From NCBI GenBank assembly GCA_947449765.1, contig CANFSP010000004.1, forward strand, positions 1 through 64,000: DNA of 64,000 nt, read 5' to 3'. Origin of the DNA: Actinomycetota bacterium (GTDB taxonomy: Bacteria; Actinomycetota; Actinomycetes; Actinomycetales; Microbacteriaceae). A program made the position numbers and the translations under genes. Under the pieces are notes generated by a model. It was given only the letters and a program-made list of their open reading frames with translations, was not told the origin of the DNA and did not search any database. This document shows, in pieces, positions 38,075-41,881 of this stretch. Within the stretch, counting starts at the first letter, position 1. Each line of letters begins with the position of its first letter.

Positions 38075-38782
38075 GTGACGTCACGTACAGTTCTGATCAC
38101 CGGTGGAAACCGCGGAATTGGTTTCGCGCTGGCCGAAGAATTCTTAGCCGCCGGACACCGTGTAGCGGTGACCGCACGTTCCGGCTCGGGTCCCGCAGGC
38201 TCGTTGACAGTGAACGCTGACGTAAACGACGGCGAGTCGTTGGATGCTGCACTGTCTCGGATCGAAGCTGAGTTGGGGCCCATTGAGGTGGTCGTGGCCA
38301 ATGCCGGAATTACCAAGGACACCCTCCTCATGCGGATGTCCGATGATGAATTCGATTCGGTTGTGGCGACGAATCTCGGAGGCGCTTTTAGGGTCGTTAA
38401 GCGTGCGAGCAAATCTATGATTAAGGCCAAGTTCGGACGAGTTATTCTCATCGGTTCGGTTGTCGGCCTTTACGGGTCGGCCGGACAAGTGAACTATTCC
38501 TCGTCAAAGAGTGCTCTTGTGGGAATGGCCCGCTCAATCACGCGAGAACTTGCTGGTCGGGGAATTACCGCGAATGTTGTCGCACCGGGCTTCATCGAGA
38601 CTGATATGACGGCCGCGTTGCCTGAAGCACAACAACTTCAGTACAAGGCAAGTATTCCCGCCGGACGTTTTGCGCAGGCCAGTGAGGTCGCCAAAGTATG
38701 CGTGTGGCTAGCCAGCGATGAGACGTCGTATATCAGCGGTGCTGTCATCCCTGTAGATGGCGGATTAGGAATGGGCCACTAG
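38075..38782 (+). CDS. fabG: 3-oxoacyl-[acyl-carrier-protein] reductase
   Basis: This 235-residue short-chain dehydrogenase has the NADP-binding TGGNRGIG (9-16), NAG at 76-78, catalytic Asn100, Ser128, Tyr141 and Lys145 (YSSSK), and a VAPGFIETDMT motif typical of FabG. It reduces 3-ketoacyl-ACP in fatty-acid elongation. The GTG start has GGAG (38065-38068) six bases upstream. In mycobacteria inhA follows fabG; here the convergent serB follows with a four-base overlap. Confidence 0.9.
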   Translation: MTSRTVLITGGNRGIGFALAEEFLAAGHRVAVTARSGSGPAGSLTVNADVNDGESLDAALSRIEAELGPIEVVVANAGITKDTLLMRMSDDEFDSVVATNLGGAFRVVKRASKSMIKAKFGRVILIGSVVGLYGSAGQVNYSSSKSALVGMARSITRELAGRGITANVVAPGFIETDMTAALPEAQQLQYKASIPAGRFAQASEVAKVCVWLASDETSYISGAVIPVDGGLGMGH

Positions 38783-39423
38783 TAGTCGGCTCGCCCATAA
38801 ATACGATCGGCCGCGAGGCTTAAATCTCTTTCGGAGATCGAGAAGTTAGCCACCTGAATCACAATCGGTTTTGCGCAAAATGCAATGCTGATTCCCGCAG
38901 ATTGCATCATGGGAATGTCGTTAGCGCCGTCGCCGATAGCGACAGTGTCGGCGTGAGAAATGCCGTTTTCGGCAGCCCACTTGTCCAACGATTGAGCCTT
39001 TGCCGCTGCGTCAATAATCTCGCCCCGCAAACGTCCGGTGAGGATACCGCTCTCAACGTCTAGTCGGTTTGCCCGCCAGAAATCAAGATTCAGCCGAGAC
39101 GCAAGTGGGTCCAGAATTTCGTGAAACCCTCCAGAAACAGCTCCCGCCAGACCTCCTCGATGATGAATCTCATCGATGAGAGCGTTGGCGCCGTGGGTGA
39201 TCGTCACGTCACTCAGCACGTCAGTGAAGGCTTGTGTTGAGAGTCCTTTCAGTGTGGCTACTCTTTCCCTGAGGCTCTCGGCAAAGTCGATCTCGCCACG
39301 CATCGCTCGATCGGTTATCTGCGCAACACGCTCGCGACTTCCAGCCTTTTCCGCAAGAAGCTCAATCACTTCGTTGTCTATTAGGGTGCTGTCGACGTCG
39401 AATACGACAAGTTTTCTCGTCAT
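38779..39423 (-). CDS. serB: Phosphoserine phosphatase
   Basis: This 214-residue HAD-family enzyme makes serine from phosphoserine. The nucleophile motif DVDSTLID has Asp9 and acid/base Asp11. SGGF provides motif II and [10 protein letters not shown] is the metal-binding motif. It lacks the N-terminal ACT domains found in some actinobacterial SerB. Its ATG overlaps the glgC stop as ATGA, an unusual pairing of serine and glycogen genes. Confidence 0.93.
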
Positions 39424-40661
39424 TGGGTGACGCGTGTTCCTTTTCCAACTACGGTGATGCCTGTCTCCGTGACGGTGAATCCTCGTGCCAGGTCACGCTC
39501 CCGATTAACCCCCACGGTTGCACCTGGGTCGACAATCACTTCTTTATCGAGAATAGCCCGTCTGATTTCAGCGTCGGCTCCGATGTGCGAGTGATCAAAG
39601 ACGATTGAATCAATAACTGTCGCACCAGAATCAATTCTGTTCCAGGGACCCAACACAGATCTCTCGATGTGAGCCCCTTGAATGACAGAACCGAGGGAGA
39701 CAATTGAGTCGATAGCATTTCCCACCCTGCCTCGACTATCGCGAACGAACTTCGCCGGGGGAGAGTTGACCAACATCGAATAGATGGGCCACTGATTGTT
39801 GTAGAGGTTGAAAATGGGATACGCGGCAACGAGATCTTGGTGCGCCTCAAAAAAAGATTCAATGGTTCCCACGTCGCGCCAGTAATCTGCGTCTCGAGCC
39901 GTGGACCCGGGAACCTCATTGAGTCGGAAGTCGTAAACACCAGCTGCATTCTGACGTACAAAGAATGGGATGATGTCCCCGCCCATATCGTGAGACGAAT
40001 CGGACTGCTCACCGTCACGCTCCACTGCCTCGATGAGAGCGTCGGCATCAAAGACGTAGTTTCCCATTGAAACGAGTACTTCATGCGGGCTGTCGGCGAG
40101 CCCGATTGGATCCGAAGGCTTCTCCCTAAACGCCGCGATCGTGGTTGGGTCGTGCTGATCGACCTCGATAACACCAAAAGATGAAGCGAGAGAAATCGGT
40201 TGGCGAATAGCCGCCACAGTTGCACTTTTACCCGACGCGATATGCGCCTCGATCATCTGTGAAAAGTCCATCCGATATACGTGATCGGCGCCTACGACAA
40301 CAACGATGTCCGGTTTTTCGTCCCGAATGAGGTTGAGGCTTTGTAATATTGCATCTGCGGATCCGGTAAACCATCGCTTACCGAGGCGCTGTTGAGCGGG
40401 TACCGACGCCACATAAGCGCCGAGGAGGCTTGACATGCGCCAGGTTTGTGAGACGTGTCTATCAAGGCTGTGCGACTTGTATTGAGTGAGCACCACAATC
40501 TGACGCAAGTCAGAATTGATGAGGTTAGAAATAGCGAAATCGATTAGTCGATACTGTCCACCAAACGGAACAGCCGGCTTTGCCCGGTCTGCAGTCAGCG
40601 GCATGAGGCGCTTGCCTTCGCCCCCCGCGAGAACAATTCCAAAGACCTTTTTGGCTCCCAT
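39420..40661 (-). CDS. glgC: Glucose-1-phosphate adenylyltransferase
   Basis: This 413-residue enzyme makes ADP-glucose, the activated donor for glycogen. The N-terminal nucleotidyltransferase fold has [16 protein letters not shown] and [14 protein letters not shown]. The [11 protein letters not shown]-like segment ([15 protein letters not shown]) and a C-terminal left-handed beta-helix follow. The start is probably leaderless: TAGGGT lies seven bases upstream. Its start codon is only 29 bases from that of divergent glgA. Confidence 0.96.
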
Positions 40662-40690
40662 GGCGTTTACCCTAACGCTAATCTGTCGAC
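40662..40690. promoter_or_regulatory. Back-to-back leaderless promoters of glgC and glgA
   Basis: The whole intergenic region is 29 bases. On the minus strand TAGGGT (40674-40669) lies seven bases before the glgC ATG; on the plus strand TAATCT (40679-40684) lies six bases before the glgA ATG. Four bases separate the two hexamers, so each -35 region must fall in or near the other gene's start. Confidence 0.65.
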
Positions 40691-41881
40691 ATGCGCATCG
40701 ATTTGCTCACTAAAGAATACCCACCACACATTTATGGGGGAGCTGGTGTGCACGTCACTGAACTCGTGAGGTCATTGCGCTCCCTGGATGAAGTATTCGT
40801 TCGCTGCTTTGGTGCTCCTCGCGACGAACCTGATGTGACCGGCTATGAGGTTCCGACCGAGTATTTATCGGCGAATCCTTCCGTGCAGACCCTCGCTGTG
40901 GACCTGCTCATGGCGCAGGATTGTGGGGGCGCCAGCTTGGTGCATTCGCACACGTGGTATGCCAACGAAGCCGGTCGTCTCGCGCAGCAACTCCATGCGA
41001 TTCCTCACGTCATCACGGCACACAGTCTTGAGCCCCTGCGCCCCTGGAAAGCTGAGCAACTTGGGGGTGGATACCGTTTGTCGAGTGACATCGAAAAACG
41101 TTCGTTCGAATCAGCTAATGCCGTTATTGCGGTGAGCGCGGGGATGCGCAACGACATCCTGCGGTGCTATCCGCACCTTGACCCCAACCGCGTTCACGTT
41201 GTGCATAACGGTATCGACACGGAAGTGTGGAAGCCAACGACTGACGCTGTCACTCTCGCAAAGTGGGGCATCAGCGAGAACCAACCGACCATCGTTTTTG
41301 TTGGCAGAATTACACGCCAAAAAGGGCTCCCGTATCTGTTGGCCGCGGTCCGTGACCTTCCTCGGGAGGTTCAAGTCGTCCTGTGTGCAGGAGCTCCCGA
41401 CACGCCTGAAATTATGGCCGAGGTTCAGAGTGCCGTCGCGCAACTCCAGAAGGAACGGGGTGGGGTCATTTGGATCGAGGAGCACCTCCCGCAACCACAG
41501 CTCGCCAGCATCCTTTCGGCCGCCACGGTCTTTGTCTGCCCGAGTATTTATGAACCGCTCGGCATCGTTAATCTTGAGGCGATGGCGTGTGGCATTCCTG
41601 TCGTGGGAACTTCAACGGGCGGGATTCCTGAGGTGGTCGTTGACGGCGAAACGGGATGGCTCGTTCCGATCGACCAGGTTCTCGATGGAACAGGAACACC
41701 AACTTCGCCGGATACGTTCGTGGCAGACCTCGCCAGAATTTTGACTCTCGCCGTTTCGGATCCTGCAGAAGCAGCTAAGCGAGGCGCGGCCGCTCGGGTC
41801 AGGGCACAAACTCATTTTTCCTGGGTCGAGATCGCTCAAAAAACGCGACACGTCTATCTCGACGCACTAGCTAGTGGATAA
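40691..41881 (+). CDS. glgA: Glycogen synthase, actinobacterial GlgA/GlgM type
   Basis: This 396-residue GT4-fold glycosyltransferase begins [17 protein letters not shown], with the substrate loop YGGAGVH. The donor site is [19 protein letters not shown], with the E-x7-E pattern. The mycobacterial homologue makes maltose-1-phosphate from ADP-glucose and glucose-1-phosphate, so either a synthase or GlgM role is possible. The leaderless start is supported by TAATCT six bases before ATG. Confidence 0.92.

Follow-up and report, generated by a model that had tools for sequence, protein, structure and literature searches.

Back-to-back leaderless-type promoter elements in the 29 bases between divergent glgC and glgA (probably glgM) genes of a Microbacteriaceae genome

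The glgC-glgA locus

The window, the whole stretch of 64,000 nucleotides that was analysed (contig CANFSP010000004.1, positions 1 to 64,000), contains glgC and glgA as a divergent pair. On the minus strand, glgC (39420..40661) encodes a glucose-1-phosphate adenylyltransferase of 413 amino acids (NF002023, 642.9 bits, cut-off 458; TIGR02091, 429.5 bits, cut-off 424.9). On the plus strand, glgA (40691..41881) encodes a protein of 396 amino acids of the coryne/GT4 type, which matches TIGR02149 with 553.9 bits (cut-off 302.4) and the Pfam domains Glyco_transf_4 and Glycos_transf_1. A phosphatase-like open reading frame (38779-39423, serB-like by eye) starts inside the last four bases of glgC with an ATGA overlap, and glgC is therefore probably the first gene of a two-gene operon. 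Between positions 39300 and 42100, no RNA family was found at its gathering score.

The GlgA protein is probably GlgM, a maltose-1-phosphate synthase. The window genome also carries a GlgE-type gene (PF11896 over cut-off, 664-residue reading frame), and the GT5 domain PF08323 has no match in this genome, which is 98.55% complete. In a control, PF08323 was matched in 12 of 14 genomes; Corynebacterium glutamicum is among them, and the domain therefore does not serve as a clean marker in all actinobacteria. Given the GT4-type GlgA, the glgE gene and the lack of a GT5 match, ADP-glucose and maltose-1-phosphate are the probable products of the pair. An earlier reading, made from the letters of the window (the sequence-only reading), had assigned GlgA to glycogen synthesis, and on this evidence its product is probably maltose-1-phosphate and not glycogen directly. 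The GlgE-type reading frame adjoins a second one that is glgX-like by eye.

The glgC ATG occupies 40661-40659 on the minus strand and the glgA ATG 40691-40693 on the plus strand. Each is the earliest possible start of its open frame, and homologues of both proteins align from residue 1 or nearly so. The genes share the 29 bases between them (40662..40690; GGCGTTTACCCTAACGCTAATCTGTCGAC), which contain a -10 hexamer for each direction and, we infer, both promoters. TAGGGT (40669..40674, read from 40674 to 40669 on the minus strand) lies 7 bases from the glgC ATG, and TAATCT (40679..40684, plus strand) lies 6 bases from the glgA ATG. Both hexamers fit the TANNNT pattern of the family, point outwards and are separated by 4 bases (40675-40678), exact to the base as the sequence-only reading had described them. 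Their distances from the start codons, together with the preference for C at -1 in the family and the rarity (glgC) or absence (glgA) of Shine-Dalgarno motifs there, place the predicted transcription starts at the A of each ATG, 40661 on the minus strand and 40691 on the plus strand. Both mRNAs would then be leaderless, with a start-to-start distance of 30 bases.

The sequence AGGG stands 8 bases upstream of the glgC ATG; it is not among the Shine-Dalgarno motifs searched in the family, and could act as a weak one if the glgC mRNA began further upstream. The glgA -10 element is without the TG of TGnnC, an element that precedes most glgA -10s in the family, and promoter strength may therefore differ in the window. 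A half-palindrome, GCGTT-6-AACGC (40663-40678), extends over the glgC -10, and a similar one is present in one of the two other members of the genus.

Conservation of the -10 elements

When the 29 bases were shuffled, TANNNT appeared at 6-7 bases on both sides in 88 of 200,000 trials. In a 464-kb sample of the genome, window included, the 414 starts given by a simple custom gene caller show a sharp TANNNT peak at offsets 6-7 (60 starts, 47 of them at offset 6 and 13 at offset 7), with 0-8 occurrences at every other offset from 0 to 40. Leaderless-type starts are common in this genome and have the consensus TAGNCT (75 starts, nearby alternative starts allowed); SD-like motifs, by a loose motif definition, precede 139 of the 414 starts. 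Gene overlaps aside, glgC and glgA are the tightest of the 66 divergent pairs in the 464 kb, and detailed inspection of the 28 pairs separated by no more than 120 bases showed a -10 signal at offsets 6-8 on both sides in 4 of them. At positions 17830-17889 of L232 (contig 4, 101830-101889), 60 bases separate another two divergent genes, each of them preceded by a leaderless-type -10.

Among 150 genomes of the family that were searched, 123 gave a strong glgC match and 120 were measured; L197 was dropped because the start codon was not found, and L212 and L213 because glgA was not found on the roughly 600 bases taken. The two genes are divergent in all 120. TANNNT lies 6-8 bases before glgA in every one of them and 6-7 bases before glgC in 115, the glgC-side element being missing in the other 5, and both -10s are thus present in 115 of 120 genomes (shuffles: mean 0.15, maximum 3). 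With this conservation and the genome-wide TANNNT peak, a chance origin can be dismissed. C is found at -1 of glgA in 86 genomes and of glgC in 94, and the Shine-Dalgarno motifs searched match before glgA in none and before glgC in one, which agrees with leaderless mRNAs. The view of the region as back-to-back leaderless promoters is therefore well supported by genome statistics and conservation, with start sites that are predicted from the -10 positions.

A separate search in a named set (Microbacterium, Leifsonia, Cryobacterium and others, plus some other families) gave both -10s in 70 of 79 loci; this set partly overlaps the 120 genomes, and some of its gap sequences are identical. An eightieth locus, L102, was left out, glgC being absent from the DNA available. 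Six of the nine misses lack the glgA side, and five of these six are Brachybacterium, Dermabacter or Dermabacteraceae rows.

No -35/-10 pair of a sigma-70-like promoter was found in a scan of 40500-40850. A -35 is also not visible in the 75 leaderless-type starts of the genome, where neither TTG nor TAG is enriched at spacers of 12-24 bases, and in family members with intergenic regions longer than 56 bases (40 and 39 rows) no base exceeds 55% from -36 to -20 of the hexamer end. A TSS analysis has reported that the TTG triad is missing from actinobacterial promoters (PMC8407463, partial text). The proposal that the -35 region of each promoter lies in the coding sequence of the other thus holds as geometry only, neither the scan nor the 75 starts having revealed such an element. 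A shared -35 was rejected as well, as the 12-24-base spacers and the long-gap family controls show no enrichment.

Within the window genus, the intergenic gaps of the three genomes available (L004, L006 and that of the window) are 28, 28 and 29 bases. These bases are conserved above fourfold sites, with 25/28 identical between L004 and L006 (fourfold sites 165/409, p = 3e-7), 21/29 between the window and L006 (120/345, p = 1e-4) and 19/29 between the window and L004 (98/346, no p value computed); both ends of the window rows were anchored by hand. The sequence-only reading had suggested looking among relatives for conservation beyond protein need in the intergenic bases and in the first codons. 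Fourfold identity in the first 12 codons of glgC and glgA, respectively, is 4/5 and 3/5 for the window and L004, 4/5 and 1/5 for the window and L006, and 4/7 and 4/6 for L004 and L006, all tiny numbers. It is not specific, because L005 and L007, with a 95-base gap, show the same (5/6 and 3/5), and a constraint on the first codons by an overlapping -35 was therefore rejected.

Spacing of the two promoters

The intergenic region measures 28-162 bases in the 120 family genomes, 71 of which fall within 43-51 bases; the longer forms are scattered over many lengths. Where both -10s are present (n = 115), the gap between the hexamers is 21 bases in 39 genomes and 22 bases in 18, together 57, and the neighbouring lengths are nearly empty (18 bases in one genome, 19 or 20 in none, 23 in three). 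At 3-4 bases, the hexamers of the window genus lie closer together than any others among the 115. The central bases of the 21- and 22-base gaps have a pairwise identity of about 0.23-0.36, compared with about 0.27 from base composition alone (pairs above 80% identity excluded, 13/741 and 2/153); the sequence has therefore drifted to saturation while the length stayed. The peak is repeated in the named set, with a gap of 21-22 bases in 27 of 70 loci, and a second peak there lies at 51 bases (11 of 70).

On a weakly resolved tree (about 160 GlgA columns; 29 of the 117 inner branches starred), three length classes require 26 changes, compared with a shuffled mean of 41.1. The classes are therefore clustered, yet have changed repeatedly. 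A simple shortening from the common 46-base form was rejected as the origin of the tight gaps, the other rows of the 12-row fork with the window genus being 82-104-base regions; the three members of the genus are not joined in the GlgA tree. TGTAC before the glgA -10 was considered as a dual-use element and also rejected: TGTAC or TGnnC is present with long gaps too, and the element therefore belongs to the glgA promoter.

Outside the family, 79 genomes of the class gave a match; G200, at a contig edge, was left out and G202 contributed two stretches, so that 79 stretches were examined. A divergent glgA lies within about 600 bases in 57 of them, over 28 of 31 family codes, and was not found in the other 22. 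Both -10s are present in 35 of the 57 pairs (shuffled mean 0.055), the glgC-side element in 52 and the glgA-side element in 40. In five of the 57 pairs, only 22 or 17 bases separate the genes, and the -10s overlap. The gap is 22 bases in L273 (G169), L276 (G209) and L282 (G176), and the two hexamers have TA in common. It is 17 bases in L249 (G155) and L279 (G160), where one hexamer fits TANNNT and its partner NANNNT (the partner read by eye); here the -10s overlap almost fully and have the conserved A and T in common. If transcription starts at the start codons, as assumed, the start-to-start distances are 23 bases in the 22-base form and 18 bases in the 17-base form.

In L273 and L276, from two genera of one family, the 22 bases are perfect palindromes with different arms, and in L282 a partial palindrome is symmetric at 16 of 22 positions. 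In the third genome of the L273/L276 family (L269/L296), no adjacent glgA was seen. Two perfect palindromes that differ in their arms point either to selection favouring symmetry or to a mutational process by which palindromes are perfected; both come from fragmented draft genomes of 380 and 400 contigs. The families with palindromic or overlapping promoters are represented by 3, 1, 1 and 1 searched genomes, and the order of the first likewise by 3.

Expression from the shared region and related systems

We consider it likely that the 29 bases hold two separate outward-facing leaderless promoters of the sigma-A type, which are nearly independently expressed and form a tight version of a divergent glgC-glgA(glgM) promoter pair that is old in actinobacteria. 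Each promoter would consist of little beyond a -10 element 6-7 bases before the start codon, at which the mRNA would begin. As conserved output, a single short region would drive the genes of two enzymes that share ADP-glucose, and both genes would be subject to the same local DNA state and to any shared regulator. The footprint of RNA polymerase is far larger than 30 bases, and it is plausible, by size, that two polymerases are not bound at once, in which case only one of the two directions would be engaged by polymerase at any moment. With promoters of ordinary strength, this exclusion should cost little and leave glgC and glgA nearly independent; competition would be expected only when one promoter is strongly activated. 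In vitro, the basal activity of five bidirectional promoters of E. coli was too low for much competition, which appeared when one direction was strongly activated; activation of one direction can repress the other (PMC12825309, partial text). By analogy with these weak basal promoters, near-independent expression would be expected in the window organism, although an actinobacterial polymerase may behave differently from that of E. coli.

We also speculate, tentatively and with considerable doubt, that the glgC-glgA gaps form a set of natural stages lying between a pair of separate promoters and a single symmetric bidirectional one, with selection on the spacing itself. The 21-22-base gap might then be maintained in roughly half of the family genomes measured because the -10 of the partner serves as the upstream contact region of each promoter; the -10s of the window genus would have come to lie within 3-4 bases, and those of a few genomes of other families would have merged, sometimes into perfect palindromes. 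The CTA of the partner, read as TAG at a 17-base spacer in the 21-base gap, has the exact geometry, but the controls give no support, and we rejected it as an element in its own right and keep it only within this speculation. If true, a shared -10, as in the 22- and 17-base regions, would fix equal initiation of both genes.

The sequence-only reading had offered a different account, in which a polymerase bound on one side keeps the other from binding, and this mutual exclusion couples the genes and balances the two enzymes. A predicted start distance far below the polymerase footprint is consistent with such a switch, as are the tight spacing in all three genomes of the window genus and the repression seen in E. 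coli when the opposite direction is activated. However, exclusion would anticorrelate initiation and not couple it, the basal E. coli promoters hardly compete, and tight exclusion is not needed for these genes because their gaps range from 28 to 162 bases in the family. Mutual exclusion as a coupling device is thus rather unlikely, and a less likely reading than near-independent expression.

That only one of the promoters is real, the other gene being read with a short leader from a start inside its neighbour, is unlikely: AGGG would provide a possible ribosome site for glgC, and five family genomes are without the glgC-side TANNNT, but the element stands at 6-7 bases in the remaining 115, Shine-Dalgarno matches are limited to one genome and the scan of 40500-40850 gave no sigma-70-like promoter. 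It is very unlikely that the half-palindrome overlying the glgC -10 acts as a repressor site common to both genes, comparable to those of the carbon regulators of Corynebacterium (RamA and RamB are reported as regulators of glycogen synthesis in C. glutamicum in a title cited in PMC6004087, partial text); it has 5-base arms and its 16-base GCGT...ACGC recurs in L004, but it is not retained in L006, and short arms easily arise by chance.

With two nearly independent promoters as the preferred reading, the window presents an unusually tight version of a layout that is common in actinobacteria, likely as a GlgC-GlgM and not a classical GlgC-GlgA pair. With its many spacings across considerably more than a hundred genomes (120 of the family and 57 outside stretches), mostly with simple -10-only leaderless-type promoters, the glgC-glgA pair offers a natural series for asking when divergent promoters start to interfere and whether shared -10s have their evolutionary origin in separate ones.

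Divergent glgA and glgC genes, leaderless actinobacterial mRNAs and the missing -35 triad are already known. In the accessible parts of the open-licence literature, we found no description of the back-to-back leaderless glgC/glgA layout, of the 21-22-base spacing or of the palindromic forms. The genes are adjacent and divergent in C. glutamicum (PMC6004087, partial text) and R. jostii (PMC2667194, partial text) as well, but lie 153 bp apart in C. glutamicum compared with 29 in the window. The GT4-type GlgA beside glgC, with glgE in the genome, resembles the mycobacterial GlgC-GlgM-GlgE pathway, with the difference that GlgM of the window is identified by family models and the presence of glgE.

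The elements themselves resemble actinobacterial leaderless -10-only promoters, with TANNNT 6-7 bases before ATG or GTG and, across the family, mostly C at -1 and hardly any Shine-Dalgarno matches, although AGGG precedes glgC in the window; the window differs from the ordinary case in that two of them face outward with 4 bases between. In C. glutamicum, leaderless transcripts make up about 33% of the mRNAs (PMC3890552, partial text), and in mycobacteria the leaderless type is common and a cytosine is preferred at -1 of leaderless genes (PMC4633059, partial text). The layout further resembles the bidirectional promoters described by Warman, Grainger and colleagues in E. coli and other prokaryotes, where divergent transcription starts from one short stretch, polymerase engages one direction only, the mRNAs are often functionally linked, and the preferred E. 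coli start-to-start distances are 18, 10 and 23 bases (PMC12825309, partial text). Unlike a shared -10 bidirectional promoter, the window has -10s without common bases, 4 bases apart, and a predicted start distance of 30. By sequence, the -10 is shared in L273, L276 and L282, and the 17- and 22-base gaps outside the family would give 18 and 23, two of the three E. coli distances.
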